36,616 bases of DNA, from positions 1 to 36,616 of the forward strand of contig MVRV01000031.1 of assembly GCA_002068015.1 (NCBI GenBank), written 5' to 3'. The stretch's first letter is position 1; each line of letters begins with the position of its first letter. The position numbers and the translations under genes are program-made. Below, piece after piece: positions 16,386 through 36,100 of this stretch. The stretch comes from Smithella sp. PtaU1.Bin162. Its GTDB lineage: Bacteria > Desulfobacterota > Syntrophia > Syntrophales > Smithellaceae. The notes below the pieces were generated by a model. It ran no database searches, was not told the DNA's origin, and saw only the letters and a list, made by a program, of their open reading frames with translations.

Positions 16386-16416
16386 AAATTTCTCCTTTTA
16401 ATGATAGTCTTTATTT

Positions 16417-19602: not shown

Positions 19603-20534
19603 TTTTGCACCTTCTTTTTCCTTTCCATGTGGTCGGCCAGAACGACGCCCATGGAAATCTGCTCTACCAGATTGTGGCTTTTGTCGGAACGGGAAGGTAT
19701 ACAGACCGGCCCCCGGGATGTAGCGACCAGTGAACTGCGTTTGACGTTGAGAAAAAAATCAAGCTTGCAGATAATGTTGCCCGTATCAAGACAGGGGACG
19801 ATCAGAATATGGGGAACACAATCTTTTCTAACGTTCTTTTCATCTCCGGTGCGTTTTTTCCCAGCGAGAAAGATTTCCGTAAAAGAGGTAGCAGGGATAA
19901 TTTCGCAATCGCCGAATTTTCCTTCATCCGCTTCAATTTTCAGGGCTTCATAATCCCGGTACGAGGCCATTGTGCCGCCCACTTCCCTCTGACCGGAAAG
20001 TACTGCTATTTTTGGTCGGGTATATCCCAGAAGATGAAAAACAAAAACTGCGTTTTGAATGATTTCTTTTTTGGCTTTCATATTTGGTTTGATGCTGACT
20101 CCCGTATCGGTGAAGGCGATGAGGTGGTCGATGCCCGGTACCTCCCAAAGAGATACTACGCTTACCGTCATGCCGGAATTGGCCTTTGCCTCCTCGCGAA
20201 TAATAGAGCGGTAAATGTATGAGGTGGGAATTTGACCCTTGCCGGCGATGGGTGTTTCTCCGGAAAAAAGCATCCGGATGCCCAGATCGGAAATGCTCTG
20301 CTTATCTTCTTCGGAAATTTTCCGGAAAGAGCCGATATTGAAATCGACCTTTTGCGCCGCTTCGGCAATTCTCTTTTTGTCGCCGACAAGGATTGGTTCT
20401 ATGTAGCCCAGTTCATGGCTTTTCTTGATGGCCATCATGAAATCGTTGTCTTCCGGTGCGAGGACAACCATTTTTTTGGGACCTTTTTCCCTGGCGAGTT
20501 TGGCAAAGTCACCAAGTTTTCTGATCATTGTCAT
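19599..20534 (-). CDS. Phosphotransbutyrylase paralogue, first copy
   Basis: A 311-residue PTA_PTB-family protein beginning with MTMIRKLGDFAKLAREKGPKK and VVLAPEDNDF, the form seen in phosphate butyryltransferases. The C-terminal half is more diverged than usual: where the second copy has GPLDIDCAVSRAAAERKG, this one has GDCEIIPATSFTEIFLAGKK, and it ends with a basic MERKKKVQK tail. Activity of its own is therefore less certain than for the second copy. An AGGAG site precedes the first of two close ATGs (20534 and 20528). It is separated by 136 bases from the flavin reductase-rubredoxin gene and starts the ptb-ptb-buk run. Confidence 0.8.
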   Translation of the reverse strand: MTMIRKLGDFAKLAREKGPKKMVVLAPEDNDFMMAIKKSHELGYIEPILVGDKKRIAEAAQKVDFNIGSFRKISEEDKQSISDLGIRMLFSGETPIAGKGQIPTSYIYRSIIREEAKANSGMTVSVVSLWEVPGIDHLIAFTDTGVSIKPNMKAKKEIIQNAVFVFHLLGYTRPKIAVLSGQREVGGTMASYRDYEALKIEADEGKFGDCEIIPATSFTEIFLAGKKRTGDEKNVRKDCVPHILIVPCLDTGNIICKLDFFLNVKRSSLVATSRGPVCIPSRSDKSHNLVEQISMGVVLADHMERKKKVQK

Positions 20535-20670: not shown

Positions 20671-21363
20671 TTATTTTTCTTTTTCAAACTGTGTTTTGGC
20701 GGCGCCGCAGACCGGGCATACCCAGGAATCGGGAATATCTTCAAACCTTGTACCCGGAGCAATACCGCCGTCAGGATCGCCTTTGGCGGGATCATAAACA
20801 TAGCCGCAAATTGTACAGACATAACGCGCAGCGGGAGCAGTGGACCCGGTATTCTTCTCTTCCCCGATATAGGTGGGAGCGGTTTTGGGCGCCTTTCCGC
20901 CCTTCACCTTGTGATAATAGTCATAGGTCATTGGTTTGGCTTCGCCGGTTATATCGGCATCAACGACACGCCCGATAAAAATCGTATGGGTGCCGCAATC
21001 CATCTCCTGTATTACTTCCGTTTCCAGGTAGCCTATGGAATAGTCGATGACTATCGGTACTCCCGTTGTGCCTTGCCTGGTTTTTACATTTGTGAGTTTA
21101 TTGACGTCACGGCCGCTTTTGAATCCGAAAAGACCGATGAAAGTCATCGGTGCCTCCTGCGAGAGAATGGAAACGGTGAATCGGCGGCTCAATTTAATCA
21201 GCTCATGCGTAAAATTTTGTTTATTTATGCTGATGGCGACCGTTGCCGGTTCCGATGTTACCTGAAACAGCGTATTACCGATTTGTCCATTTCCTTTGCC
21301 CTCCTGCCCGGAGGTAATTATGTAAAGACCGTAACTTATTTTATGTAATGCCGCTTTGTTCAT
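20671..21363 (-). CDS. Flavin reductase-rubredoxin fusion (high-molecular-weight rubredoxin type)
   Basis: A 230-residue protein. Residues 1-155 form a flavin reductase-like FMN-binding domain ([50 protein letters not shown]). Residues 181-226 form a rubredoxin with C183-C186 in [12 protein letters not shown] and C216-C219 in [10 protein letters not shown]. The same arrangement is known as Hrb in acetogens and in flavoredoxin-rubredoxin proteins of anaerobes, where it passes electrons from NAD(P)H to flavodiiron NO or O2 reductases. No flavodiiron partner lies in the window. The ATG at 21363 has an AAGGAG site; an upstream in-frame extension lacks one. It is divergent from the lipid cluster. 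Confidence 0.9.
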
Positions 21364-21576
21364 CTTTTTCTCCTTAATCGGGTATTGGATTTTATTTTTA
21401 TACCGCAAAATGGTTTCCCGTTCCATGAAATATTGTGCAGACAATGGAATTTATGTCCTGGTCGGCGGGTTCTTTTCTTTTGACAAAACCATGTTTATCT
21501 TATAGTCCATTGCCGGTAAGAAGAAATACCGACTATACAATTCAATAGTTGACTAACAGGTTTCACGCCGGAGATC

Positions 21577-21642: not shown

Positions 21643-22236
21643 ATGATGAATTATCAGGAATTTATGGCCAGAGACCATTTTAATCTGGAAGAGATTTTGG
21701 GGATGGCATACGGGACGATGATCTCCGATCCTCCGGAGCACTTTGACGCGAGACTTCCGGCTCCTCCTTTTTTAATGGTGGACAGAGTACTGAAAATGGA
21801 AAGTAACGGGAGCCGCGGAAAAATAATTGCGGAGCAGGATATTCGTATTGATGCCTGGTATTTCCAGTGTCATATGCCGGGCGATCCGGTACAGCCGGGA
21901 TGTCTTTGTGTTGATGCCGTCTGGCAGTTACTTGGTTTTTATTGTCTGTGGCGGGGAGCCCTGGGATCGGGACGTGCTTTGGGTTGCGGGGAAATTGCCT
22001 TCAACGGCCAGATCCGTCCTTTTAACAAGTGTGTTCGCTACGAAATCAATGTGCGGCGTTATTCCTGCCTGAAAGATTCCGGATCATCAATAGTTACCGG
22101 TGACGGTAAAATATTTGTTGACGATGAGATGATTGCCTTTGTTGCGCAGGCCAAAACCGGAATATTCCGTGATATTGCTTACCGGGATTATCCCGTAAGA
22201 TCGAAGAATTCCGTAGGCGGAATAATGGCAAGATGA
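21643..22236 (+). CDS. FabA-like 3-hydroxyacyl-ACP dehydratase/isomerase
   Basis: A 197-residue hot-dog protein clearly of the FabA type. LPAPPFLMVDRV (residues 38-49) opens the domain, and the active-site helix reads WYFQCHMPGDPVQPGC with catalytic H77 and, 14 residues later, D91 in VDAVWQLLGFY, the FabA histidine/aspartate pair. GRALGCGEIAFNGQI also matches FabA. It is slightly longer than E. coli FabA (172). FabA enzymes dehydrate 3-hydroxyacyl-ACP and can isomerise trans-2 to cis-3 double bonds, so this gene could put cis double bonds into the chain made by the cluster. It is the first gene of the cluster, with an AAGGAG site about 11 bases from the ATG. Confidence 0.9.
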   Translation: MMNYQEFMARDHFNLEEILGMAYGTMISDPPEHFDARLPAPPFLMVDRVLKMESNGSRGKIIAEQDIRIDAWYFQCHMPGDPVQPGCLCVDAVWQLLGFYCLWRGALGSGRALGCGEIAFNGQIRPFNKCVRYEINVRRYSCLKDSGSSIVTGDGKIFVDDEMIAFVAQAKTGIFRDIAYRDYPVRSKNSVGGIMAR

Positions 22237-22363
22237 TTTATCAGGGAAACTTTGCTGCTGTTTTTAAACGGAGTATTATCCGGGTGTCTTTACGGAAATT
22301 CTTCTTGAAAATAAATCTGACTTGAAGCTATCATCAAAAACATTTTTACAATTAAGATAAAAC

Positions 22364-22789
22364 ATGGGAGTTAATTTGAGTTTATTAAAAAAAACGGCCC
22401 ATTATTTTGCCCGGAAGGAATTCTGCCGGAAAGCAATTGACGAGCATGCCGACCTTAGCGTTTTTAAAAAGAAACCTTCTTTCCGCATCGCTATCGGGCT
22501 TATTTTAATCGCCTTCAGTTATGCAATCGGCCTGCCGGCGGCAATTATTCTGAGTGTATTTGCGGTTTCCCAGGGCAATACAATGATGGCCGCTGTTGCG
22601 GCTCCGCTCTTGTACGGCTTATCCTGGCTGATTTTTATGGTCGGTTTGTACCTTGCAGGTCCGGAATATGGTAAGGCTTTGGGTCGTTTTACGGCGAGGA
22701 TTATTCTGGAAAAAATACTCGGTGCCGAGGCAAAAGTGCGCTCTCCTGCATCCTCTGAGGGATCGGAAAGTGACGAGCGGAAACACTGA
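22364..22789 (+). CDS. Small membrane protein of the lipid cluster, function unknown
   Basis: A 141-residue protein I do not recognise. A positively charged N-terminal third (KKTAHYFARKEFCRK) is followed by hydrophobic stretches at about 40-68 and 74-98, giving two or three membrane segments, and a hydrophilic C-terminal tail rich in E and S. It is inside the lipid cluster, 127 bases after the FabA-like gene and 31 before the first carrier protein, so it may anchor the system or a product to the membrane. The start is uncertain: the ATG at 22364 has a poor ribosome site, whereas an in-frame TTG at 22376 has GGGAG 5 bases upstream and would shorten the protein by 4 residues. Confidence 0.7.
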   Translation: MGVNLSLLKKTAHYFARKEFCRKAIDEHADLSVFKKKPSFRIAIGLILIAFSYAIGLPAAIILSVFAVSQGNTMMAAVAAPLLYGLSWLIFMVGLYLAGPEYGKALGRFTARIILEKILGAEAKVRSPASSEGSESDERKH

Positions 22790-22820
22790 AGTACATACAT
22801 AGATAAAAACGAGGTGTTAA

Positions 22821-23093
22821 ATGACTCAACTTGATGAATTAACCGCTGAACTTAAAGTAAAAATTATTAAGACTCTGGGTTTAATGGATGTTAAACCCGC
22901 AGACATTAAGGATGAAGCCCGGCTTGTCGGTGGGGATACCGGCATTGATTCCATTGATGTGCTGGAGCTGGTAATGATGATTGAAAAAGACTATGGTGTC
23001 AAAATCGAAAGCAAGGAATTGGGCGCCAAAGTTTTTGCGTCTGTGCGGGCGCTTGCCGCATACATTTCGGAAAACCGGAAGCAAAAGGCATAA
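22821..23093 (+). CDS. Acyl carrier protein 1
   Basis: A 90-residue acyl carrier protein. The phosphopantetheine site is S44 in GIDSIDVLELVMMIEKDYG, and helices on either side match the ACP fold (a first helix through TLGL, a final one through AAYISENR). It is expected to carry the growing acyl chain as a thioester. It is one of two different carriers in the cluster, which suggests separate pools or stages (for example elongation and modification). It stands 55 bases ahead of the B12-binding radical SAM gene. Confidence 0.9.
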   Translation: MTQLDELTAELKVKIIKTLGLMDVKPADIKDEARLVGGDTGIDSIDVLELVMMIEKDYGVKIESKELGAKVFASVRALAAYISENRKQKA

Positions 23094-23148
23094 TAGTCCG
23101 CCTGAGCAATGACGATTTTCTCATTATTTTCACTTACAGGCTGCTTCT

Positions 23149-24498
23149 ATGAAAGTATTGCTGATATCGGCAAACGCCCTGAAAGTGCCTTACCCCGTCT
23201 ATCCTCTGGGGCTCGATTATGTCGCGGGCGCTCTCGGTTCCGGCTATAATGTAAAAACAGTGGATGTGAATGATTTTGCTTCACCGGCGGGGCTTACCGA
23301 AGCCATCAGGGATTTTTCTCCTGATTTTGCCGGAGTATCAATCCGCAATATCGACAATACGGATACAATTAACAGCAGGGATTTTCTCGGCGAATATCAA
23401 AACCTGGTCCACCGGATCAGGGAAAATTCGCGAGCTCTGGTCATTCTCGGCGGCAGTGGTTTTACAATCTTTCCCCGGGAATTCATGCGGGCGCTTGATG
23501 CCGATTACGGTATTGTCGGTGAAGGCGAAAAGTTGCCGCTTCTTTTGCAGGCACTGGAAAATAATGGAAACGTGCAATCTCTGCCCGGGATCATCACCAA
23601 AGAAACAACCGATATTATTTACGAACCGTGGGGAAAGGAAATTAAGCGGTGTTTCTCCCCGGAAAGTTCCCCGGTAAAATTTTATCTGGCCAGAGGCGGA
23701 ATGCTTAACCTGCAGACGAAGCGGGGGTGTCCTTTCCGCTGCAGTTACTGCACTTATCCGCATATTGAAGGACGCCGGATGCGTTTTTTTCCGCCGCGGG
23801 AAGTAGCCCGGGAGGCACGAAAATTACAGGATGCCGGAGCCGGATATATTTTTATTACTGATTCCGCATTTAATGCCGACTACGATCACAGCCTGGAGGT
23901 GGCGCAATCTTTCCTTGAGGCCGGTATTTCGATACCCTGGGGTGGCTTTTTTGCTCCGACGGTGCCGCCCGGCGGATATTATAAAAAACTTGCCCTCGCA
24001 GGGCTCAGCCATGTGGAATTCGGGACTGAATCGCTCTCAGCTGCAATACTGAAAAATCTGCAAAAACCTTTCGCCGCGGAAGATGTCTTTGCGGCTCACG
24101 ATCAGGCACTGGCGGCAGGTATTCATATTGCCCATTATTTCCTTTTCGGCGGACCCGGTGAAAGCGCTGCCACTCTCCGGGAAACATTGGATAATGTAGA
24201 AAAAATTTCCCGATCGGTTTTTTTCTTTTTTTGCGGTATTCGTATTTATCCCCACACTGCTCTGTATGAAATTGCACTGAGGGAAGGCCAGATCACTGCC
24301 CGGCAAAATCTTTTACAGCCGGTATTTTACCGGTCGCCGGCTATAACGGACAGGGAAATAATGCAGAAGGTGGAAAGTAGTGCCGCCGGTCGTTTCAACT
24401 GGATAATCGGAGCCGGTGAAAATAAGGCATTGAAAGTTCTTCCCAAGCTTTATGAGCGGGGATTTACGGGGCCCTTGTGGGAACATTTGATTTCCTAG
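23149..24498 (+). CDS. B12-binding domain radical SAM protein
   Basis: A 449-residue protein with a cobalamin-binding Rossmann domain (about 1-150: MKVLLISANALKVPYPVYP, GVSIRNID, VILGGSGFTIFP, GIVGEGE) and a radical SAM barrel from about 185. The iron-sulfur cysteines are C194, C198 and C201 in RGCPFRCSYCTYP. The B12 domain has no DxHxxG motif, as in many enzymes of this class. FGTESLS and LFGGPGES are typical barrel motifs. Class B radical SAM enzymes methylate unreactive carbon or phosphorus, but relatives also do ring contraction and cyclisation. Its place between acyl carrier and dehydratase genes points to a lipid substrate. I recall related proteins named for lipid biosynthesis in organisms with ladderane-like cassettes; that is memory, not a search result. 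Confidence 0.88.
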   Translation: MKVLLISANALKVPYPVYPLGLDYVAGALGSGYNVKTVDVNDFASPAGLTEAIRDFSPDFAGVSIRNIDNTDTINSRDFLGEYQNLVHRIRENSRALVILGGSGFTIFPREFMRALDADYGIVGEGEKLPLLLQALENNGNVQSLPGIITKETTDIIYEPWGKEIKRCFSPESSPVKFYLARGGMLNLQTKRGCPFRCSYCTYPHIEGRRMRFFPPREVAREARKLQDAGAGYIFITDSAFNADYDHSLEVAQSFLEAGISIPWGGFFAPTVPPGGYYKKLALAGLSHVEFGTESLSAAILKNLQKPFAAEDVFAAHDQALAAGIHIAHYFLFGGPGESAATLRETLDNVEKISRSVFFFFCGIRIYPHTALYEIALREGQITARQNLLQPVFYRSPAITDREIMQKVESSAAGRFNWIIGAGENKALKVLPKLYERGFTGPLWEHLIS

Positions 24499-24550
24499 CA
24501 GATTTGCTAAGGCTTATGTGTTGTCGGTTACTTTAAGCTAAGGATTATTA

Positions 24551-25366
24551 TTGAAAAACGGGGAAAAAATCGTTTATCCGGCGCATATTGCCGGGATAAT
24601 TTTTCTGGCCGCAGCCGCGCTGCTTTTTTTTATACAACCGCTCGCTGCGGGGATTATTGCCTTTTTATATATTTTGCTTTGTTTTGCCGCTTCTTTTTTC
24701 CCGGCAACAAGCTTTTTTGGTCCGGTGGTGAGCCGCGGCAATACCGGGGAAAACCTGGTTGCTCTCACTTTTGATGATGGTCCGTCAGATCCCTTGACCA
24801 GGCAAATTCTTGACCTGCTCGATAAATATAAGGCACCGGCCACTTTTTTCGTCACAGGTGCCAATGCCGTCAAATATCCGGAAATAATTAAGGAAATAAT
24901 TTGCCGGGGGCATGATATAGGCAATCACTCTTTTCATCATGATCCGTTTTTGATGCTGAAAAGTTCACGGGTGATTTTTGAAGAAATTATTACCGCCCGG
25001 GAAGTACTAAGAAAAATGGGAGTGGAGACACCGGCCTTCCGGCCGCCCGTGGGCATAGTTAATCCCAAACTGGCTCCGCTTCTCCTGGAATTAAAAATGT
25101 ACTGTATAACCTTCAGCTGCCGGGCGTTTGATGCCGGAAACCGCCGGGTGAAAGGTATCGGCCGGAAAATCCTGAAAAAAATAGCATGTGACGACATAGT
25201 TTTGCTGCACGATGCCATGCCGCCCCGGCAAGGCGATGAGACCGTTTTACTCCGGGAGATAGAGGATCTGCTTTGCGGACTTACCTCCCGCGGGCTGAAG
25301 GTGACGCCGCTTTCCCGTTTAATCGGCAGAAGCGTAATGAATAAAGGAACTAAACTTAAAAAGTAA
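24551..25366 (+). CDS. Membrane-anchored polysaccharide deacetylase (NodB homology)
   Basis: A 271-residue protein with two N-terminal membrane segments (about 8-30 and 32-50) and a NodB-type carbohydrate esterase 4 domain from about 70. Motifs are LTFDDGPSD (metal aspartate), GNHSFHHDP (metal histidines), FRPPVGIVNP and VLLHDAMP. CE4 enzymes remove N- or O-acetyl groups from sugars with a divalent metal. The catalytic part should lie outside or at the membrane face. It is unusual inside a fatty-acid-like cluster and may deacetylate a sugar headgroup of the final lipid, or have another deacylase role. The start is a TTG (24551) with AAGGA upstream; no better ATG is near. Confidence 0.85.
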   Translation: MKNGEKIVYPAHIAGIIFLAAAALLFFIQPLAAGIIAFLYILLCFAASFFPATSFFGPVVSRGNTGENLVALTFDDGPSDPLTRQILDLLDKYKAPATFFVTGANAVKYPEIIKEIICRGHDIGNHSFHHDPFLMLKSSRVIFEEIITAREVLRKMGVETPAFRPPVGIVNPKLAPLLLELKMYCITFSCRAFDAGNRRVKGIGRKILKKIACDDIVLLHDAMPPRQGDETVLLREIEDLLCGLTSRGLKVTPLSRLIGRSVMNKGTKLKK

Positions 25367-25471
25367 ATTAATTCTTGACGTTATAAAAAAATTTTGCTTG
25401 AAAAAACATTTGGTGATAAGAAATTAAATTCTTTAACGATAATCATATTCCGGCTGTAAAAAAGGTGGTTT

Positions 25472-25846
25472 GTGGAAGATCAATGGCAATTGCTGACGGA
25501 TGTGAAGACAGTAGAGCCCAACAGTATCGAGGCGCATGCATTTGTGCCCGTTTCTTCTCTGTGGTTTTCGGGTCACTTCCCCGGAGAGCCGATTTTGCCT
25601 GGAATGGCCCTGGTTCACGTTGTCTGGCAGGCTATTGTCCGGGAAGCAGGAAAAAGAGCCGAAGAAATCACTCTCACTAAATTGAAAAGGGTGCGATTTA
25701 CCCAGCCGGTGCGTCCGGGAGACCATATAGCGGTGCTGATAACAGTCATTGAAGAAGGCAGTGAATCTACATATTCGTTTAAAGTTGTCAGTGGAGAAAA
25801 TGTTATTTGCAGCGGAGGAATTGCTGCTAAAAAGATAAATAAATGA
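25472..25846 (+). CDS. FabZ-like hot-dog protein lacking the catalytic acid
   Basis: A 124-residue FabZ-type hot-dog protein. The active-site region reads FSGHFPGEPILPGMALVHVVWQ. H35 is present, but position 49, 14 residues later, where FabZ has glutamate and FabA aspartate, is histidine. The rest (LTKLKRVRFTQPVRPGD, near 69-85) matches the family well. Either it uses a histidine pair, or it has lost dehydratase activity and serves as a subunit or isomerase. The start is a GTG at 25472 after AAAGGTGG. It lies 105 bases after the deacetylase and 15 before the second carrier protein, so it may act on chains bound to that carrier. Confidence 0.82.
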   Translation: MEDQWQLLTDVKTVEPNSIEAHAFVPVSSLWFSGHFPGEPILPGMALVHVVWQAIVREAGKRAEEITLTKLKRVRFTQPVRPGDHIAVLITVIEEGSESTYSFKVVSGENVICSGGIAAKKINK

Positions 25847-25861
25847 AAAAGGAGGAACATG

Positions 25862-26134
25862 ATGCCTACAAGCAAGAATAGAAAAGGCATTATAAAGCAT
25901 GTTGCCTCGATAATTATCGAGGAACTTAAACTGGAAAATATAACCGCGGAAACATTCAATCCCGACTTGGATTTGGTTGATGAACTGGGTATCGACAGCA
26001 TGGATCTGGCGACAATCGCCCTGGTTTTACAGGATGAATATAAGATTACGATTGATGAGGACGATTATCCCAAATTGAAGACGGTTTCTCTGATTGCCGA
26101 ATATATTGAGGGAAAACTTGCGGCAAAAAATTAA
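25862..26134 (+). CDS. Acyl carrier protein 2
   Basis: A 90-residue acyl carrier protein, different in sequence from the first one in the cluster. The phosphopantetheine serine is S46 in DELGIDSMDLATIAL. The third helix is very acidic (TIDEDDYPKL), which is uncommon and may set partner choice. I start it at the second of two adjacent ATGs because the GGAGG site then has a 6-base spacer. It directly precedes two radical SAM genes, suggesting that this carrier presents the substrate to them. Confidence 0.9.
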   Translation: MPTSKNRKGIIKHVASIIIEELKLENITAETFNPDLDLVDELGIDSMDLATIALVLQDEYKITIDEDDYPKLKTVSLIAEYIEGKLAAKN

Positions 26135-26147
26135 TTAATGGTTGTTT

Positions 26148-27233
26148 ATGACTATAAGCAATAAAATATTTTCTGCAGAAGACAGACCGAAATTTTCCGA
26201 GCTTTTAGCCTGTCCCGAAATTCGGCAGCGCTGGGAAAAAGTCCGCAAGTATTTTTTCCTGCGTGAATCCACTTACGATATGAGTAACCGCTGCAATCTC
26301 CGTTGTGACGGTTGCTATTATTATGAAGGTGCAAAGCAGTTTGCCGCGGAAAACAATGATGCCGCAGCCTGGTGTAAACTTATGAAATCCGAGGCCGCGC
26401 GCGGCATCACGTATGTAGTACTGGCCGGAGCAGAGCCGTCGCTCGTGCCGGAGCTTCTGGAGGTCTGTTTTCAGGAAATGCCGCTGGGCAGTATTGCCAC
26501 CAACGGTTTCCAAAAAATACCCGAAGCCGTCGGTTATAAAATTCACATTTCCGTCTGGGGGAGTGATGAAACCAGCCTGCGTGTGCGCAAAGCAAAAAAT
26601 CTGCTGCAGAAACAGATTGTCAATTACAAAAACGATCCGCGGGCGGTTTTTGTCTACACTTTTACGCGGGAGAATATCAATGAAGTTTATTCGGTTGCCC
26701 GGGATCTGGCGGCGGAAAATTGTAAATTGACCTTCAATGTTTTTTCGTCACCGGTCGGTTACTCAGGTTCTTTACGTCACACGGAGGAATCGTTGCAACA
26801 GACAAGAAAGGCAATGATCGATCTTCTCGGCAAGTATCCGCAAAATGTTCTTTTTTCGGTTTATAATGCCGTGGCGCACACTGATAAAAAGGGATTGCAC
26901 GATCTTTACTCCTGTTCTTATCCCCGTATGAACCGTTCGCAGGACATCGGCCTGGGGCGTTCATTCCGCCAGTACAGAACTGATTTGAGCTGGGACAGGG
27001 ATGTCGCCTGTTGTGTGCCGGATACGGATTGCGCCGATTGCCGGCATTATGCCGCAGGGTCGGCGGTTGTTACCGCCCGGCTGTACCGGCATGTAGGCAG
27101 CCCGGCTATTTTCAAATCATGGCTGGATTATGTGGATACCTATCTTGCGGTTTGGGTCATGGGTTATGAAAAAGGAGAAAATCTCTGTGCTGAACAGGTT
27201 GATCCGCCCGCAGCGGCGGGCAGGACAAACTGA
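26148..27233 (+). CDS. Radical SAM protein 1 of the lipid cluster
   Basis: A 361-residue radical SAM enzyme with C49, C53 and C56 in NRCNLRCDGCYYY. A glycine-rich SAM-binding strand follows as VVLAGAEPSL, and IATNGFQK is typical of the barrel. The C-terminal part carries a second cysteine set: C256, then C288-C289, C295 and C298 (ACCVPDTDCADC), likely for an auxiliary iron-sulfur cluster. The protein is paralogous along its length to the next gene. The ATG at 26148 is preferred over a TTG two codons upstream; neither has a clear ribosome site, and the gene starts 13 bases after the second carrier protein. The reaction is unknown; C-H abstraction on a carrier-bound acyl chain is the likely role. 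Confidence 0.87.
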   Translation: MTISNKIFSAEDRPKFSELLACPEIRQRWEKVRKYFFLRESTYDMSNRCNLRCDGCYYYEGAKQFAAENNDAAAWCKLMKSEAARGITYVVLAGAEPSLVPELLEVCFQEMPLGSIATNGFQKIPEAVGYKIHISVWGSDETSLRVRKAKNLLQKQIVNYKNDPRAVFVYTFTRENINEVYSVARDLAAENCKLTFNVFSSPVGYSGSLRHTEESLQQTRKAMIDLLGKYPQNVLFSVYNAVAHTDKKGLHDLYSCSYPRMNRSQDIGLGRSFRQYRTDLSWDRDVACCVPDTDCADCRHYAAGSAVVTARLYRHVGSPAIFKSWLDYVDTYLAVWVMGYEKGENLCAEQVDPPAAAGRTN

Positions 27234-27267
27234 GAGCGGATACCGGAAGAGGTGAGAGGGAATATTA

Positions 27268-28266
27268 ATGCAGACTGTAAGTTCATTGCTCAATAAAGAA
27301 TGGTATGAGCGTTATAAGCGCATCGCCAGTCTTAATATCCGCAGTTCCATATATGATGTCACCAATAGATGTAATTTGCGTTGCAAGGGATGTTTTTTCT
27401 TTTCTTCCGGTGAACACGAGGCAGCCCGGGAAGAGATGGATATAAAAAAATGGGAGAATTTTATTGACCGGGAAAAAGCACGTGGCGTCAACCTGGCCAT
27501 TTTAATCGGCGGTGAGCCGACGCTCTGCATGGATCGGGTGGAAGCTTTTTACACTCGTCTGCCCTCTTATTGCGCCACCAATGGTCTGATTAAAATTGAC
27601 CGCGCGAAATTTCCCGACCTGATGGTGGGGATTTCCTTATGGGGTGGCGGCGAAGATGAAAAAATTCTCCGCGGACGCGATACCTTTGCCATATCCAGTA
27701 AAAATTATGAGGGCGACACCTGTACTTATTATCTTTACACCATAACACCGCGTCAGGTGGGAAAGATCGAGCCGGTGATTAAACGGATTGCGGATGTCGG
27801 ACTGAAAGTGCATCTGCAGCTTTTATCCAACGACGAAGGTGTGGATGGGTTTTCCTGGGGAAAAGAGGAACTGGCGGATTTACGCCGGGAAATGGATGAA
27901 GTCCTCGACAAGTATCCGCGGACGGTAATTTCCAGCAAATATTACCATGAAGTAATAACTACGGGAAAGATGATGGGCCGTGCATTCGGCTGGCCAGAAT
28001 GTCCTTCCGTAACCGAGTCTCTCGATACGAGAAAGCCGCAGCCGAGGCGTTTGATTCATTTTGTCCGCTGGGCGTCCGATTTGCAGACCGTTCATCGCTG
28101 CTGTACATCGGCGACACGCGATTGTTCCACCTGCAAAGACGGGGCGGCGCACATGAGCTGGATCATGGTCAATAAGCGCGAGCACATCCGGACAACCAGG
28201 GATTTGCAAAACTGGATCGAAGTTTATGAGATGTTTGCCAAGTTGTATCGTTTTATTCCCTGGTGA
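27268..28266 (+). CDS. Radical SAM protein 2 of the lipid cluster
   Basis: A 332-residue radical SAM enzyme with C35, C39 and C42 in NRCNLRCKGCFFF. ILIGGEPTL and CATNGLIKI correspond to the barrel motifs of the preceding gene, and GISLWGGGEDE to its HISVWGSDE. The same C-terminal cysteine set is kept: C245, C278-C279, C286 and C289 (RCCTSATRDCSTC). The two proteins look like an old tandem duplication that kept both iron-sulfur sites, so they may act one after the other on the same chain or as a heterodimer. The ATG has a GAGGG site upstream. It is followed by the ketosynthase genes. Confidence 0.87.
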   Translation: MQTVSSLLNKEWYERYKRIASLNIRSSIYDVTNRCNLRCKGCFFFSSGEHEAAREEMDIKKWENFIDREKARGVNLAILIGGEPTLCMDRVEAFYTRLPSYCATNGLIKIDRAKFPDLMVGISLWGGGEDEKILRGRDTFAISSKNYEGDTCTYYLYTITPRQVGKIEPVIKRIADVGLKVHLQLLSNDEGVDGFSWGKEELADLRREMDEVLDKYPRTVISSKYYHEVITTGKMMGRAFGWPECPSVTESLDTRKPQPRRLIHFVRWASDLQTVHRCCTSATRDCSTCKDGAAHMSWIMVNKREHIRTTRDLQNWIEVYEMFAKLYRFIPW

Positions 28267-28361
28267 TATTATAGTATGTCCAACCCTTTTTTACAGAAGA
28301 TCAGTATTTAAAGGGGCGCAATAATAATCCGCTGTTCATCATGATGTTTCGGGGTTGCCTT

Positions 28362-29612
28362 ATGTCGTCAAAAAGAGCTGTAATATTGGGATATGATTGC
28401 GTCTCGTCTCTCGGCACGGATTTGGAAACCCAATGGAGGCGGGCAGCAGACGGTGAAAGCGGAATTTCCGGTCTGACCAGATTTCCGCTGACTGCCGATT
28501 TCCCGGTGCGTATCGCCGGAGAAGTCCCGGAAATCGATGTTTCCCCGTACCCTTTTTTACAGCCCCGCGAAATGGCCCACTGGACATCGCCGATTTTCAA
28601 ATACGCCCTCCTGGTTGTGCATCGCGCACTCATAAAAAGCGGCATTACCATATCGCCCGCGCTGGCGCCGCGTATTGCCGTAACTTTCAGCACTGCAGTA
28701 GGCGGCCTCGATGCCGTGCTGCATGCCGACAGATTGCTGAAAGCCGAAGGAAAGCTTCCTCATCCTTTCACCAATCCTAATTCCTGCATTAACATGGTCG
28801 GCGGCAAGGTTTCCATTCTTACGGGGGCGACCGGACCGATCTGCTCGACAATTACCGCCTGCGCCACAGGCATTACATCGCTCATCATCGGGGAAATGCT
28901 TTTACAGCGGGGAATGGCGGATGTTGTCATCGGCGGTGCCGTTGACTTTCCTCTGGTTGAACCGATTGTGGCCGGATTTGCGACGATGAACGGCGCTTAC
29001 CGGCCGAAAGAGGGACAGCCGGATGAGCCGCCGCAAAAAACCAGCCGGCCGTTTTCGCTCAATCGCCGGGGTTTTGTCGTTTCCGAAGGCGCCGGATGTA
29101 TTATCCTCGCCTCGGCCGAATTTGCGGAGGCTCACGGTCTTGCGCCTTTGTTTGAACTGGCCGGTTGGGGGATGACCTCCGACGCCGGCCATTTTGTATC
29201 GCCCAATCCGGTCACCGTGCAAAGGTGCATCGAAGAAACGATTGCAAATGCCCGCTTGCAGCCGGAGGACATCGATGCCGTAAACGCTCATGCGACCTCG
29301 ACGAAAGTTGGAGATAAAGTGGAAGCCGATGTCCTGCACGATGTGTTTGGCGGGAAACTGCCGCCGGTTTCGGCAAATAAATCGCAACTGGGACATGCCA
29401 TGGGTGCATCCTCAGCGATAGAGACGATATTAGCAATGGAAGGAATGTGCCGGGATACATTGCTTCCCACCATTAATTATATTCCCGATCCGGCAATTGT
29501 TCTCGACTGTGTTGCGGAGGGGGCGCGGAAATTGAAGCAGGAATTTGTTTTGAAAAATTCATTCGGCTTTGGCGGATGTAATTCTTGCGTGCTTTTGCGC
29601 CGGCTGGTATAG
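28362..29612 (+). CDS. Beta-ketoacyl-ACP synthase 1 (FabF-like)
   Basis: A 416-residue KAS II-type condensing enzyme with a complete triad: C167 in STITACATG, H310 in NAHATSTKVGD and H345 in NKSQLGHAMGAS. The usual KS core (SEGAGCIILA, SFGFGGCNSCVLL) is present. The alanine in NAHATST replaces the usual glycine. It condenses malonyl-ACP with an acyl chain. The start is taken at MSSKRAVILG (28362), the family-typical N-terminus; earlier in-frame ATGs at 28341 and 28344 add non-conserved residues. Only 15 bases separate it from the second ketosynthase. It could be the elongation partner of a KS pair. Confidence 0.88.
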   Translation: MSSKRAVILGYDCVSSLGTDLETQWRRAADGESGISGLTRFPLTADFPVRIAGEVPEIDVSPYPFLQPREMAHWTSPIFKYALLVVHRALIKSGITISPALAPRIAVTFSTAVGGLDAVLHADRLLKAEGKLPHPFTNPNSCINMVGGKVSILTGATGPICSTITACATGITSLIIGEMLLQRGMADVVIGGAVDFPLVEPIVAGFATMNGAYRPKEGQPDEPPQKTSRPFSLNRRGFVVSEGAGCIILASAEFAEAHGLAPLFELAGWGMTSDAGHFVSPNPVTVQRCIEETIANARLQPEDIDAVNAHATSTKVGDKVEADVLHDVFGGKLPPVSANKSQLGHAMGASSAIETILAMEGMCRDTLLPTINYIPDPAIVLDCVAEGARKLKQEFVLKNSFGFGGCNSCVLLRRLV

Positions 29613-29627
29613 GAAAATATATAAATT

Positions 29628-30893
29628 ATGAAAGCTCCGAAAAACAGAAGAGTATTTGTCGTCGGTTACGGAGCGGCTACCCCGCTCGGCTGCACGTTTG
29701 AAAAAACCTGGAAGCGCGCCTGCCGCGGAGAGGCCGGTTTTCGCAAAGTTACGCGCTGCAGTGTGGAATCACTGTGCGATGTTGTCGGTGAAATACCCGA
29801 CTGGTATCCGCTGGACCTTGATTTTACCGATGCCAAAGAAGTTTATAACTGGAATGCCTCGTTCGTGATACTGACCATGGCCGTCTGCAAGGAAGCGCTT
29901 GCCGGTTCCGGAATTATCATCGACGAACGGACTGCGCCCCGGATGGCGTGTCTTATCGGTTCGGCGCTTAACGGCACCGATGCCTTTCGTATCGCCATGC
30001 ATGACCTGGAACACAGAGGTCCGCTCCGGGTCAGCCCCTACCTGCTTCCCAATTTATGCGCCAATCTGCCTTCCGGTAAAGCGGGGATGCTCCTGAAATT
30101 TACGGGGCCGATATTTTCACCGCAGGGAGCGTGCGCTTCCGGGAACTATGCCATCGGTGTCGGCGCGAGAATGATCCGGGACGGCGATTGTGATTTTGTG
30201 CTGGCCGGCGGTGCCGATACGCCGATCCTGCCGGAACTGATTCACGGTTTTGCCAACATGAATGCGACAATTAAAATTAATTCCCAGGATCGGGCATACG
30301 CCGATCCGGCGCAGGCATCGCGGCCGTTTAGTGCCGACCGCAGGGGTTTTGTTCTTTCGGAAGGAGCGGGCGTTCTGGTTCTGGCCGCCGATGATGTAAT
30401 TGCCGCGCACGGTCTTGTCCCCAAAGCGGAAGTGATTGGTGCCGGCTGGAGTTCGGATGCTTACCATTATACTGCTCCCAATCCGGTGACGATTACCCGC
30501 GCCATCCGCGAAGCGATCGATGATGCGGGATTGCAGCCGGAAGATATTCAGTATATTAATGCCCATGGAACTTCCACAGCGAAAGGCGATCGGACGGAAG
30601 TGAAATGTCTGCGCGATGTCTTCGGCAAAAAAATCGAAAAAATTCCCGTATCCTCGAATAAATCTCAACTGGGGCATACCCTGGGTGCCACGGCGGCGAT
30701 CGAAGCCGCGCTCACCATTGAAGGTATGAAGAAAGGGATTATCCTGCCGACGATCAATCATCTTCCCGATCCCGATCTGGCGGACATTGATGTTGTTCCC
30801 AATACCGCCCGCAAACAGAAATATGAAATTGCGCTTTCCAATGCCTTTGGTTTCGGCGGGACAAATTGCTGTATCATTTTTCGAGGAGTGTAA
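29628..30893 (+). CDS. Beta-ketoacyl-ACP synthase 2 (FabF-like)
   Basis: A 421-residue condensing enzyme, also with a complete triad: C169 in SPQGACASG, H313 in NAHGTSTAKGD and H350 in NKSQLGHTLGAT. In type II PKS pairs the second KS is usually a chain-length factor without the cysteine; here both copies keep it, so both should be able to condense. Together with the preceding KS it may form a heterodimer or handle different chain lengths. Several in-helix cysteines (C145, C188, C327) are unusual but not diagnostic. The ribosome site is weak, so translation may depend on coupling to the first KS. Confidence 0.88.
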   Translation: MKAPKNRRVFVVGYGAATPLGCTFEKTWKRACRGEAGFRKVTRCSVESLCDVVGEIPDWYPLDLDFTDAKEVYNWNASFVILTMAVCKEALAGSGIIIDERTAPRMACLIGSALNGTDAFRIAMHDLEHRGPLRVSPYLLPNLCANLPSGKAGMLLKFTGPIFSPQGACASGNYAIGVGARMIRDGDCDFVLAGGADTPILPELIHGFANMNATIKINSQDRAYADPAQASRPFSADRRGFVLSEGAGVLVLAADDVIAAHGLVPKAEVIGAGWSSDAYHYTAPNPVTITRAIREAIDDAGLQPEDIQYINAHGTSTAKGDRTEVKCLRDVFGKKIEKIPVSSNKSQLGHTLGATAAIEAALTIEGMKKGIILPTINHLPDPDLADIDVVPNTARKQKYEIALSNAFGFGGTNCCIIFRGV

Positions 30894-30895
30894 TC

Positions 30896-31375
30896 ATGAA
30901 GCCCAGACCTTTTAAACCGGAAATATTTAATAGTGATCCCCGGTATGTCCGCGACACCTCAACCGGGCTGATCTGGCACCGCTCACAGCATCGGACGCTG
31001 TATGCCGATACGGATCGTTCGGAAGTTGTTTATCATGCCAATTATCTGCGGTATTTTGAATTCGGCCGAACCTCCCTGATGCGTGATGCTGCTTACCCCT
31101 ATAAGGAAATTGAATTGAGCGGCTATGTCTATCCGATTATCGATCTGGGGATAAATTTTTATCAGCCTCTCTATTATGATGATCTCATGTACATCCAGAC
31201 AAGGCCGACCCATCTGGAGCGTGTTCGCCTGCAGTTTGATTATGTCATTACCTCGGCGGAGAAAGGACATATAATTTGCATCGGCTTTACCAAACATTGC
31301 GCCTTAAATTCAGCGGGCAATCCCGTTGCCGTCGATCCGAAAACGGTTCAACTATGGAAAGCATTTCCCGCATGA
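30896..31375 (+). CDS. YbgC/4HBT-type acyl thioesterase
   Basis: A 159-residue single hot-dog thioesterase. YADTDRSEVVYHANYLRYFE (residues 36-55) is the 4-hydroxybenzoyl-CoA thioesterase/YbgC signature with catalytic D40. It should release acyl chains from carrier or CoA, or could act as an acyltransferase-like helper. It starts 2 bases after the stop of ketosynthase 2, with a GAGGAG site inside that gene, so it is tightly coupled. Its last codons overlap the next gene in an ATGA arrangement. In the cluster it would end elongation, or edit stalled chains. Confidence 0.88.
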   Translation: MKPRPFKPEIFNSDPRYVRDTSTGLIWHRSQHRTLYADTDRSEVVYHANYLRYFEFGRTSLMRDAAYPYKEIELSGYVYPIIDLGINFYQPLYYDDLMYIQTRPTHLERVRLQFDYVITSAEKGHIICIGFTKHCALNSAGNPVAVDPKTVQLWKAFPA

Positions 31376-32223
31376 ATTCCACAATATCTCTTCCCTGGAC
31401 GATAAAAATATCTTCTTATCTGTACGATCATTCCCTTGCGGGAAAAGCGATTTATCCGGCCGCCGAAATCCTTGTTGAACTCGCCGGGGTGGTGAGACGG
31501 AATTTTCCGCAGGCGGGCATTGATAATTTGACCGAGGCTTTCTTTCCGCGTTTTCTTCCCGTTCCCGCCAACGCGCAAAGTCTTGCAGTATCCGTGCAGA
31601 TGAATGCCGTTGAAAATAATGGAATTGCGGCTTCTCTGTTGACGAAAGTGGAATTAAAAACGGGAAATATCAGCCGTGTACTCGAGCACGGGCGGGTGAA
31701 ATTTTCCTCTCTTTCCGGAAATAAAGTACCGGTGCCGCCTTTTTCCGTTCCGGAAAAACTTCCGGGGGAATGCATTGCCGTGCCGCCGGAAGTGATTTAC
31801 CGGGAACTGGTGCCTTTTGGTAAATCTTACCGGAATATTACGGGTGATCTAACCGTTTCCCGGGCCGGAGCTGTTGCCTGTCTTTCCGGCGGCGGAACCG
31901 GGGCCGATGATGACCTTCTGGGATCGCCGTTTCCGTTTGACGCCGTGCTGCATGCCGCCTGTGTCTGGGGGCAACGCTTTGGCGGCATTGTTGCTTTTCC
32001 TGTCGGCTTTTCCGGAAGAACTATTTATAAAAAGACAAAAAAAGGAATTACTTACCGGGGACAGGTGATACCTGTGCAATCCGGAGAAAAGGCGCTTGTT
32101 TTTGATGCCTGGATTTTTGATCTGCAGGGATCTGTCTGCGAAGAGATTCGGGGAATCCGGATGCAGGATGTGAACAAAGGGAAAATGAAGCCGCCGGACT
32201 GGATCAGGGCGACGACCTTGTAA
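31372..32223 (+). CDS. PKS-type double-hot-dog dehydratase-like protein
   Basis: A 283-residue protein with the features of a polyketide-synthase dehydratase domain: H20 in LYDHSLAGKAIYPAAEILVE (the HxxxGxxxxP motif), YRELVPFGKSYRNITGD near 143-159 (the YxxxxxGxxY motif), and D190 with H194 in PFDAVLHAACVWG (the DxxxQ/H motif). The catalytic pair H20 and D190 is kept. Freestanding proteins of this kind dehydrate 3-hydroxyacyl chains. It is the third dehydratase-fold gene in the cluster. The start at 31372 overlaps the thioesterase stop; longer in-frame starts would run deep into that gene. Confidence 0.8.
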   Translation: MNSTISLPWTIKISSYLYDHSLAGKAIYPAAEILVELAGVVRRNFPQAGIDNLTEAFFPRFLPVPANAQSLAVSVQMNAVENNGIAASLLTKVELKTGNISRVLEHGRVKFSSLSGNKVPVPPFSVPEKLPGECIAVPPEVIYRELVPFGKSYRNITGDLTVSRAGAVACLSGGGTGADDDLLGSPFPFDAVLHAACVWGQRFGGIVAFPVGFSGRTIYKKTKKGITYRGQVIPVQSGEKALVFDAWIFDLQGSVCEEIRGIRMQDVNKGKMKPPDWIRATTL

Positions 32224-32224
32224 A

Positions 32225-32345
32225 ACGTCCATATGCAGCGTTGCGCTTCAGCCTTTCGTCATTGCGGCGTATGTCGAAAATACGCCTCATTCCGAAGGCC
32301 TTGCGCGCCTTGCCTCTGGAGCATTTTACAAAGTCGTCAATGCTG
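32225..32345. repeat. Probable dispersed repeat between dehydratase and PlsY genes
   Basis: The region contains a 7-bp hairpin (GGCGTAT at 32266-32272, ATACGCC at 32280-32286, 7-nt loop) within sequence that resembles the non-coding dispersed elements I remember from Desulfobacterota genomes, of the form 'GAGGCGTA-hairpin-TACGCCGCAATGACGAAA'. No second copy exists in the window, so the call depends on memory and not on comparison. No convincing gene lies here; a 46-codon frame from 32233 has no ribosome site. Confidence 0.4.
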
Positions 32346-32428
32346 TTCAAATATGTGCCGATTTTTCCATTGAACAAAACCGTATAAAATAACGGTTCTG
32401 TCGAAGTTATAAAAATATTAGGGAATCT

Positions 32429-33007
32429 ATGGGTAATCTTATTTTAGTTTGTTTTTTTGCCTATCTCGCCGGGTCGGTGAACTTTGCCGTCATTTTTTTT
32501 AAGCTTACCGGCAAAGCCGATCCCCGTCTGGGATTCAGCGGCAATGCCGGAACGACCAATGTTTATCGTCAGGCCGGAATCTTTTGGGCGGCATTTATTT
32601 TTCTTCTGGATATCGGCCGGGCAGTGGGCGTAGCGTTCCTTTCCGTTTATTGGCTGCCGGCATCTTTTGTCCCCTGGGCGGTTTTTTCTCTTGTTTTGGG
32701 AAACGCGTATCCCTGTTTCCATGGATTTTCCGGCGGCAAAGGGGTGGCCAATTATCTGGGATTTTCCTTATTTGTCGCTCCGTGGTGGGCCGTTGCTTCC
32801 GCGATCATGTGGCTTGTCGTCTATGGAATTGGCCGGATTCCTTTTATTGCTTCTTTCTTTATGGTTTTTATTCTGGCGGCCGGTCAGATTTTTACTTTAA
32901 ACCGGGAACCGGCAGGCACAGCCGGTGCCGCTGCAACGTTTGTGCTCATCATATTCAACCACAGAAAAAACATTATCGACAAGCTGAAAACAAGACGAAT
33001 AAAATAG
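32429..33007 (+). CDS. PlsY-type glycerol-3-phosphate acyltransferase
   Basis: A 192-residue integral membrane protein with about five hydrophobic segments. PlsY motifs are present: GSVNFA near 15-20, GFSGNAGTTNVYR near 35-47, and GNAYPCFHGFSGGKGVANYLG near 91-111. PlsY moves an acyl group from acyl-phosphate (some relatives from acyl-ACP or CoA) to glycerol 3-phosphate. It is separated from the rest of the cluster by a 205-base gap with a repeat-like element, so it may be only loosely part of the operon. If it belongs, it points to a product built into a glycerolipid. No PlsX gene is present nearby. Confidence 0.85.
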   Translation: MGNLILVCFFAYLAGSVNFAVIFFKLTGKADPRLGFSGNAGTTNVYRQAGIFWAAFIFLLDIGRAVGVAFLSVYWLPASFVPWAVFSLVLGNAYPCFHGFSGGKGVANYLGFSLFVAPWWAVASAIMWLVVYGIGRIPFIASFFMVFILAAGQIFTLNREPAGTAGAAATFVLIIFNHRKNIIDKLKTRRIK

Positions 33008-33092: not shown

Positions 33093-33130
33093 CTTCCTGT
33101 AAAGAAACATCTTTTTTCAGGAGATGCGTC

Positions 33131-36100
33131 ATGAAAAAAATAAAAGAAATATTTATCGGCCTTGCTGTCCTGATAGTATTTGCAGCCGCGGTTTTCGCCG
33201 AGGATCAGGTACTCCTGATTCCCCTGACCGTGAAGATGCAGACCGAACGGATATTGGAGCATCCGGGTGTCAGTTCCGTAAGTTTGTTGGGAGACGGTAA
33301 ATATATTCTATCCTACTCTTATTCCCCGGATAACAGAAAAATTTTGTGGGATGCCAATACTGGCCGGAAAATATCCGAAGTGAAGAATCGGGATATTAGT
33401 TATGATACGGATAGTATGCGTTTTTTGACCTACGAAAGCGGCAGCCCGGAAATCGAAGTTTATGATTTGAGGACCGGCAACAAAATACGCACACTACGTG
33501 GCAACGGGACTAAAGGATTCGGGTATACATATTTTGCGCACAAGGGGAAATATGTCTGCGGCGCTGCGGAAAAAACGCGATATATCTGGGATCTGGATAC
33601 GGGCAAAGTAGTGCTTAGCGAAACCGGTATTAACGAAAGTCCGTGGTTTTCTATTTTAGTAGACGATAAGGAAAAGATTTATGTAGTCATTTCCTACAGC
33701 AAGGATTACGACGAAGTAAAACTCTGGGACATGAACGACTGGAGTAAGATAGGCGCTTACAAGGGGCATGCGGGCGGAGTATACACCGCCTCTTTATCCA
33801 AAGACCGCAAGCTTTTATACAGCAGCGGTGACAAAGACGGCAAAACCATACTCTGGGATGTGAAAGATCAGAGCGTCATTAATACCTTTGGAGGACATAC
33901 CGGTCGTCTTTATGGTTATTTGAACGAAGAACAAAAAATATTTACAACAACCGGTTTAGATGACAAAAAGATAACATTCTGGAATCCGCAGACCGGTGAT
34001 AAAATTTTTACCCTGAGCTGCCGGAAGGCAGCGCCGTCATACTCATGGATCGGCAAGAGCAGCTATCTTGCGGCCAACTGTGTCGGGGAGCAGGCGGAGA
34101 TTGATATTTATAACGGCCGGACGGGGGAGAAAATCAGGCGGCTGGAGGGTCATTCCTCTCCGGTTGTCTTATTCGGCCGCTACTCCAAAACCGAATCGCC
34201 AAGATTTCTCAGCTCCAGTTTCAATGAACTGATCTTTTGGGACATGAAGAATTACCGCCAGATATCTATTCAGAAACCAAGCGGCAATTACAAAGCTCAA
34301 TTCTACGGTTTTGTTATTCCGCCCGATTACAACAAGTATGCAAGTTACATGGGGAATAATGAAATCTCAGTGTGGGACATGGAAACAGGCGGGAAAATCG
34401 GCAATTATTCCGGACATGTCGACGGCGGTGAGAACCGCTATAATTATGATGATATTTTCTTTTCTCCCAACGGCAAATTGATGTTTTTGAGACAAAAGAA
34501 GGAAAAGACGATAACCGTTTTGGATATGGCCACCGGCAGAAGGCTGGAAGTCATCAAGGGTGTGGGCGATGATCCCAACGTTTCCTTTGCTCAAAAGGCG
34601 GATATAGCTGTCATCTCCAGGGAAGAAAAAGACCGGGTACGGATCATTCGATTGATCGCGCCGCAAACTTTAGTCGATGAGCAGTATTATGCCGTGGATA
34701 AGGAAATAGCGGTGCTGCAATTGGAGCGCGACGTCAAAATCAAGGAACTGGCCTCACCCCGTGGTGAGTTTGAAACGACCGCAGAGTATGAAGCCCGCCT
34801 GAAATCGGCCGATGCGGGGAAAATAAGGATAACAAATGAATACCAGCGGAAGATCGAAGCGGTGCTGGTGCAGGCGCAAAAGCGCATTTATCCCTATTCG
34901 GCAAGAATTACGCTCGGCCGTTACGATGCCGACCGGGGAAGCTTTGAAGCCGATTTTCTGGGCCGGAAAATGCTGTTTCCCGTTCCCCGCGCCAAGGCGA
35001 TTGAGCTCGCCCGTCATCGTGATCGTGTCCGGGTGGAAGGGATGCTTCGTTACTCCAGCACCGATTATGCAGAGCTTGTCAACGCATATCTCGTCGATGA
35101 AACCAACCAGGAAAAATATGCTTTTGGCCGGCACACTGGCGATACGGCTGTGGCGGCAGCCCAGCGGGTTTTGCCCGATTTGGCGATAAAAGCAATTACA
35201 CTTGTCGAACCTTCCGGAAACGGCATTCTCGATGCCGGAGAGATGGGGAAAATAGTGGTCAAAGCGGTGAACAACGGTAAAGGCACGGCATTCGGCGTTG
35301 GCTTGGTTATTTCCGCAACCGGAGGCAAGGGTTTGCGTTTTGCCGAAAAGACCGTTATCGGCGCCTTAAGCCCACAGGAAGAAAAAGAAGTATCCGTTGA
35401 TATTGCAGCGTCGGAGGAGGAAGCGGTTTCCGCCGATATTTCGCTCAAGGTTGTTCTTGCCGAATCGAGCGATTTTGATTCTCCGCCGGTGATTCTTTCC
35501 TTCAAAACGAAAGAATATCTGCCGCCGCTTTTGCAGGTGGCAAAAATTGATATCGAGGACGCCGAAGGAGGCCGCAAGATAGGGCGCGGCCGGGAAGTTA
35601 CGCTAACTCTGACCGTGCAAAACGCAGGCGCCGGCCCGGCCCGTGCGGTCACCGCCGAGATAGAGGTAGGCAGCAAAGATATCCGGTTATTCAGTGCCGG
35701 CAAGGTTTATCTGGAAACTATTGCTCCCGGTGAAGCGAAAAAAGCGCGGTTCGCCATTGCCGTAACTCAGAAGTACAAGGGCGCCAAAGTTCTGCCGCTT
35801 GCTTTTAAAGTCGCCGAAGAGCACGAGAAGTATTCCGTAAGGCCGGATATAAAACTCGCTTTAGGCGAAGAAGCTCCGGCAGTCAAGGTGGTCAAGGTGG
35901 AGACAAGGGAAACCGTGCTTGCTCTGTCCGCAGCTGAAGATGTTCGGCTGGCGCCCGCTTTGCAAGCGCAGCAAAAAACGTTCGGTGCCGACGATGTTGC
36001 CGTAGTTATCGGTATCGAAAGATACCAGAGCCTGCCCAAAACTGATTTTTCCTACAATGATGCAAAGCTCGTACGCGAATATCTGCGGGCGATGGGATTT

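Follow-up and report, generated by a model that had tools for sequence, protein, structure and literature searches.

Which lipid would be made by fourteen neighbouring genes of Smithella sp. PtaU1.Bin162 that combine radical S-adenosylmethionine (SAM) enzymes with ketosynthases and acyl carrier proteins, and do these genes form a pathway of their own? The region under study spans positions 21643 to 33007 on the plus strand of a 36,616-nt stretch of contig MVRV01000031.1, which in its full length is here referred to as the window. The initial annotation of this region had proposed a radical SAM lipid pathway with dedicated carriers. The conservation of such a unit was confirmed, but it is not self-contained. 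Judged by sequence comparison, the fourteen genes are one block of a larger gene set of roughly 40 genes which resembles those for aryl polyenes (APE), pigments of the outer membrane, and is split in the host, so that the unit first described makes up about a third of the larger system. The block is probably the radical SAM and fatty-acyl part of a split supercluster making an aryl-polyene-type outer-membrane lipid under anoxia. This reading is based on the conserved gene order, the contiguity with APE-like clusters in other families, the co-occurrence with a further ketosynthase (KS3) and the presence of an ApeI-type half-dehydratase.

The fourteen-gene block and its conservation

The plus strand from 21643 to 33007 holds 14 open reading frames with mostly tight spacing:

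21643..22236, plus strand: FabA-like dehydratase/isomerase (PF07977, 2e-38; motifs CHxxGDPxxPGC and VDAVWQL with His and Asp kept)
22364..22789, plus strand: small membrane protein, transmembrane, no match in Pfam
22821..23093, plus strand: acyl carrier protein 1 (ACP1; PF00550, 1e-8)
23149..24498, plus strand: B12-binding radical SAM enzyme (B12-rSAM; TIGR04072, 409.4 bits, cut-off 360)
24551..25366, plus strand: NodB-type polysaccharide deacetylase (PF01522, 2e-29)
25472..25846, plus strand: FabZ-like protein, ApeI-type half-dehydratase (PF22818, 25.5 bits, cut-off 28.5)
25859..26134, plus strand: acyl carrier protein 2 (ACP2; PF00550, 6e-10), adjoining the radical SAM and ketosynthase core
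26148..27233, plus strand: rSAM1, radical SAM enzyme with CxxxCxxC motif (PF04055, 9e-6, below the Pfam cut-off)
27268..28266, plus strand: rSAM2, paralog of rSAM1 (PF04055, 4e-7)
28341..29612, plus strand: ketosynthase 1 (KS1), FabF-derived, intact (ketosynthase tree and motifs)
29628..30893, plus strand: ketosynthase 2 (KS2), FabF-derived, sister to KS1, intact (ketosynthase tree and motifs)
30896..31375, plus strand: thioesterase (TE) of the 4HBT family, YbgC/FadM-type (PF13279, 3e-11; TIGR00051 above cut-off)
31354..32223, plus strand: polyketide synthase (PKS)-type dehydratase (PS-DH; PF14765, 2e-8)
32429..33007, plus strand: PlsY acyl-phosphate:glycerol-3-phosphate acyltransferase (PF02660, 1e-32)

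All fourteen one-strand genes were found where the initial annotation had placed them, with matches to Pfam and NCBIfam models. It had also correctly stated that a ketoreductase, an adenylating enzyme, a glycosyltransferase and a CrtI-like protein are absent from 21643-33007. The start of rSAM1 is at 26148 or at 26142 (TTG). Most likely, the thioesterase starts at 30896, adjoining the KS2 stop, and PS-DH at 31354, the two genes overlapping.

The block is real and widely conserved and is not a chance arrangement. Orthologs of rSAM2 with 69-88% identity were present in 41 of 59 relatives and in 21 of the 297 genomes of the phylum that were sampled. The order ApeI-like, ACP2, rSAM1, rSAM2, KS1, KS2, TE and dehydratase was kept in most of 27 homologous loci, while a few loci (e.g. 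L074, L079 and L072) have missing or shifted members at contig ends or with inserted genes. These counts and this order strongly bear out the joint conservation in other genomes on which the initial annotation had made its proposal depend. Across the core, the median identity was highest for rSAM2 (77%) and lowest for the ApeI-like protein (35%) and the dehydratase (38%).

Conservation of the single members differs. ACP2 shared 60-81% identity in syntenic loci, and a PlsY-like gene was counted in 11 loci, with further ones at lower coverage. Among the loci examined, the FabA-like gene is confined to the family of the window (66-86% identity in L056 and L058-L061). Homologs of the small membrane protein were found at the equivalent place in family f1 (42-54%) and, weaker, elsewhere. 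ACP1 adjoins a fusion of ketosynthase and chain length factor (KS-CLF) in other families.

The Cys-His-Lys-His catalytic motifs are intact in KS1 as well as in KS2, and PS-DH retains both its HxxxGxxxxP (His) and its Asp motif; a PDB search with PS-DH gave no match. The protein first labelled FabZ-like is indeed FabZ-like and keeps the catalytic His, but the catalytic Glu is lost in 13 of 13 aligned homologs. On these features it is classified as an ApeI-type half-dehydratase subunit.

An aryl-polyene-like gene set in relatives and host

In other families, APE-like clusters of about 40 kb enclose the core of the block. These clusters contain an ApeP-like dehydratase (PF22817), FabG (an ApeQ-like ketoreductase), LolA, a lipoprotein, a fusion of MMPL and methyltransferase, an LpxL-type acyltransferase, a family 2 glycosyltransferase (GT2), the KS-CLF fusion and the group ACP3-KS3-PlsC. 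Several of them carry a CrtI-like flavin adenine dinucleotide enzyme and an ammonia-lyase in addition. The genomes G044, G037, G189, G144 and G331 combine most of the block with the APE set within about 30-45 kb, namely ApeP, FabG, LolA, the lipoprotein, MMPL, the LpxL-type gene, GT2, a FakA-like protein, KS-CLF and KS3, though not all of them in each genome, and in several an ammonia-lyase. In the FakA-like protein, DAK2, FakA-middle and DegV domains are fused. Two further proteins, one of 135 aa and one of the BtrH_N/DUF4872 type (L185:5642-7111), accompany the APE-like set and occur also in G037 and G004.

In the host, the APE-like genes are split off onto two other contigs, here named C169 and C56, which accounts for most of the genes that the initial annotation had found to be missing. 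C169 carries the CrtI-like gene, ACP3, KS3, PlsC, two further ketosynthases (KS4 and KS5), an adenosine monophosphate (AMP) ligase, an acyl-CoA dehydrogenase, a B12-binding protein, an aromatic ammonia-lyase, a thioesterase, the FakA-like gene and GT2. C56 carries the MMPL-methyltransferase, an LpxL-like gene, an ABC transporter, an acyl carrier protein, another B12-rSAM and an ApeO-like ketosynthase, which is accompanied by a ketosynthase-like partner that has no Pfam match. C169 starts at the CrtI gene. In three genomes of the window's family (G005, G007 and G011) ApeP-FabG-LolA-lipoprotein directly adjoin CrtI-ACP3-KS3, with the lipoprotein, LolA, FabG and ApeP coming next outward. The ketoreductase, ApeP, LolA and the lipoprotein were seen in the relatives of the host only and not on the host contigs that were read.

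Genes for the supply and activation of an aryl acid are present in the host as the ammonia-lyase and AMP ligase of C169. The substrates of both are presumed ones, and the best model for the ammonia-lyase is a tyrosine ammonia-lyase with a score below the cut-off. In the ketosynthase tree KS3 pairs with E. coli ApeR as its sister (support 100/100). The KS-CLF fusion (L062, L063, L066 etc.), of which the window has none, branches with ApeO (94/90).

The distribution of KS3 links the two parts of the system even where they lie apart. Orthologs of KS3, defined by 69% identity or more (the next best match had 44%), were found in 20 of the 21 rSAM2-positive genomes and in none of the 276 others (Fisher p=3e-30). 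The sole exception, G141, carries a KS3 relative of 41%. In 13 of these 20 genomes both genes are unlinked: they lie 1.7 Mb apart in one of the 13 and on separate contigs in the others. Since the genomes are related, the p-value overstates the independence of the co-occurrence; six families (f22, f30, f32, f35, f59 and f95) each have rSAM2-positive and rSAM2-negative members. Orthologs of the ammonia-lyase (54% or more) were restricted to rSAM2-positive genomes, 10 of the 21 carrying one (p=3e-13).

These data bear on the question whether the block supplies ordinary phospholipids with an unusual acyl chain of its own (a methylated, cyclised or polyunsaturated fatty acid) and shares just export or precursors with a co-resident APE pathway. 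Such a division would fit the intact, FabF-derived KS1 and KS2, the acyl carrier protein, dehydratase, thioesterase and PlsY of the block itself, and its physical separation from the APE set in the family of the window. We nevertheless regard it as unlikely, given the contiguity of block and APE set in several families, the nearly perfect co-occurrence including the absences within families, and the ApeI-type subunit inside the block.

Radical SAM enzymes and the ladderane comparison

The paralogs rSAM1 and rSAM2 are 27-30% identical. In rSAM1 the conserved cysteines are C51, C55, C58, C109, C258, C290, C291, C297 and C300 (23 sequences, numbered from the TTG start at 26142). Both enzymes have nine conserved cysteines in corresponding order, six of them beyond the CxxxCxxC motif, which suggests an auxiliary Fe-S cluster. 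When the radical SAM profile was compared with solved structures, the best match was SkfB (1e-8), followed by weaker ones to tetraether synthase (5e-4), a SuiB-type entry and PqqE. As sequence matches all of these are at the superfamily level. A lone rSAM1-like gene (33%) was found in G076 (L075:9897-11024), around which no lipid cluster was recognised; this genome also has a 45% ammonia-lyase at a separate place.

Since most of the closest sequences with a solved structure belong to peptide maturases and the additional cysteines recall SPASM-type enzymes with their auxiliary Fe-S cluster, rSAM1 and rSAM2 might act on a peptide or protein, e.g. ACP2 or the small membrane protein, rather than on a lipid. 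This appears improbable. None of the curated SPASM and peptide-maturase models was passed (best about 30 bits versus cut-offs of 300 or more), no precursor peptide gene was recognised, the pair is nearly always located beside ACP2, ketosynthases and the thioesterase, and tetraether lipid synthase matches about as well as most of the maturases do.

The B12-rSAM of the window exceeds the curated cut-off of TIGR04072, a putative lipid-biosynthesis family named 'rSAM_ladder_B12'; a search of the accessible literature found no paper naming TIGR04072. The closest solved protein is the tryptophan C2-methyltransferase TsrM (3e-28). The initial annotation had drawn attention to ladderane candidate clusters of anammox bacteria. 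The synteny argument of Rattray et al. 2009 rested on K. stuttgartiensis and D. psychrophila (PMC2649909). For our comparison, ten anammox genomes were found via a Kuenenia HAO query, with kuste3342/3343 and the D. psychrophila loci lying outside this set. By gene order, the anammox ketosynthase loci compared are of the kuste3603-3608 and kuste2802-2805 type.

The assumed kinship to the anammox cassette was not supported by this comparison. No rSAM2 ortholog was found in the ten genomes, the best matches reaching about 30-37% over about 110-190 residues of the core domain, and the three of these matches that were read fall outside the lipid loci. KS1 and KS2 group together as a clade (100/100) beside canonical FabF and apart from the anammox ketosynthase pairs, of which one partner lacks the active-site Cys. 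The B12-rSAMs of the anammox ketosynthase loci scored 72-90 bits against TIGR04072, compared with 409 for the window gene, and the CrtI-like proteins are only 20-22% identical to the anammox ones. Membership in a ladderane cassette was rejected on the radical SAM, ketosynthase and B12-rSAM tests with the anammox genomes compared.

A near member of TIGR04072 does occur in anammox bacteria (L140:7714-9141 and L145:5795-7228; 324 bits in Brocadia against the cut-off of 360). It adjoins a gene resembling type III PKS genes in its N-terminal sequence, and not the FabZ, ketosynthase and CrtI loci, so that 'ladder' in the family name may mislead.

A ladderane or ladderane-like product, for which the radical SAM enzymes would turn a polyunsaturated chain into a fused ring system, is therefore hardly to be expected, and of the readings discussed here we give it the least credence. 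Similarities do exist: the Kuenenia clusters show a similar mix of FabZ, ketosynthase, acyl carrier protein, radical SAM enzyme and deacetylase (PMC2649909), the window gene belongs to TIGR04072, and KS5 of the host (C169, L183:7388-8659), which has no active-site Cys, groups with the Cys-less anammox ketosynthases (99/95, long branch). In sum, the anammox loci of Kuenenia and Brocadia are alike in their mix of acyl carrier protein, FabZ, ketosynthase pair, CrtI-like protein and B12-rSAM, but differ in having no rSAM1 and rSAM2 orthologs, another ketosynthase clade and another B12-rSAM family.

Proposed pathway, surroundings and comparison with known systems

For the aryl-polyene-type lipid the following route is proposed. 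Where present, ammonia-lyase and ligase would make and activate an aryl acid starter, from which KS-CLF, ketoreductase and the ApeI/ApeP dehydratase would build the polyene. A second, unsaturated acyl chain may be built or extended on ACP2 by KS1/KS2, PS-DH and, in the family of the window, FabA. rSAM1/rSAM2 and the B12-rSAM are candidates for modifying the chain bound to the carrier by methylation, desaturation, cyclisation or C-C coupling. Cyclisation or rearrangement, as suggested in the initial annotation, is a guess. The thioesterase would release the free acid, the FakA-like kinase would convert it into an acyl-phosphate, and PlsY and PlsC would transfer the acyl chain onto glycerol-3-phosphate; a route from free acid via acyl-phosphate to acyl-glycerophosphate through these four proteins is plausible from their families. 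The head group might be completed by the glycosyltransferase and the deacetylase, which is possibly a de-N-acetylase removing an acetyl group from the glycosylated head group. Finally, the MMPL, LolA and lipoprotein components would carry the lipid to the outer membrane.

Several points weigh against this proposal. The Pfam search of the host for ApeP was empty, although the controls were silent too and C169 breaks at the site where relatives carry ApeP. Since canonical FabF-type genes are present in the host, KS1 and KS2 could serve a separate chain. The ammonia-lyase is present in about half of the rSAM2-positive genomes, and an aryl starter may thus not be universal. Furthermore, rSAM1 and rSAM2 match characterised families at the superfamily level at most, the AlphaFold model of rSAM2, in which its paralog was the sole partner, reached a pLDDT of 46 and was not used, and the putative roles of kinase, PlsY and deacetylase are taken from family names.

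Upstream of the block, a fusion of flavin reductase and rubredoxin (20671..21444, minus strand; PF01613 and PF00301) is orientated divergently. This neighbour is kept in the family of the window (L056, L058-L061), but its membership in the block is unproven. The promoter scan gave 21 promoter-like sites (15.6 +/- 3.9 expected) and the terminator scan 29 terminator-like sites (16.7 +/- 4.4 expected); no operon was drawn from either scan. Further away, a butyrate kinase-like gene and two adjacent paralogs similar to phosphotransacetylase and phosphotransbutyrylase (305 and 311 aa) are located at 17610-20534, and would fit an anaerobic fermenter or syntroph. By eye, a pair at 16023-16809 on the minus strand resembles a dinitrogenase-cofactor-type protein and a DUF134-type DNA-binding protein, and an open frame of at least 1172 codons (33101-36616), which runs off the window edge, has a WD-repeat-like start and a caspase-like end.

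The analysis ties a conserved, undescribed radical SAM pair, with rSAM2 at about 70% identity or more across families, to one of the most widespread kinds of bacterial pigment-lipid cluster, and provides a parts list that can be tested, with about 40 genes over split loci. The lineage that carries the pair together with the APE-like set looks anaerobic. More tentatively, many anaerobes may make a new class of aryl-polyene-type lipid, in which the radical SAM pair on the carrier and the B12-rSAMs form C-C bonds or rings on the polyene. The system is also separated from the ladderane candidates, with which annotation tends to merge it ('rSAM_ladder'); antiSMASH gives 'ladderane' calls in non-anammox bacteria (PMC9902471). 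No paper linking aryl polyenes with these radical SAM enzymes was found in a literature search that covered mostly titles and abstracts and did not extend to subscription papers.

Among known systems, tetraether lipid synthase Tes is alike as a radical SAM enzyme acting on lipids, but the match is a weak one at the superfamily level (27 bits, family cut-off 450). Flexirubin-type clusters likewise combine an ammonia-lyase with LolA-type and ketosynthase genes. Here, LolA scored 115 bits against the LolA2 model (cut-off 125), and the ammonia-lyase, with 295 bits, was far under the cut-off of 700 for FlxA. Flexirubin clusters are not known to contain paired radical SAM enzymes.

In the known APE pathway, ApeH activates the starter, ApeO/ApeC, ApeQ and ApeI/ApeP elongate it, ApeK releases the product, ApeD/ApeJ attach it and ApeL/M/N export it (PMC8253772, PMC8041823). 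With apeA-R of E. coli CFT073 the system shares ApeI- and ApeP-type dehydratases, an ApeQ-like ketoreductase, KS-CLF, the ApeR-like KS3, an ApeK-like thioesterase, an ApeJ-like GT2, ApeD/LpxL-type acyltransferases, LolA, MMPL and the lipoprotein, counted either over all split loci in the family of the window or contiguously in other families. Absent from the E. coli cluster are KS1/KS2, PS-DH, the two paralogous radical SAM enzymes, several B12-rSAMs, the CrtI-like protein, the FakA-like kinase, PlsY and, in many cases, the ammonia-lyase. The system is best filed among the aryl-polyene-type lipid pathways, as a new variant that bears radical SAM enzymes.

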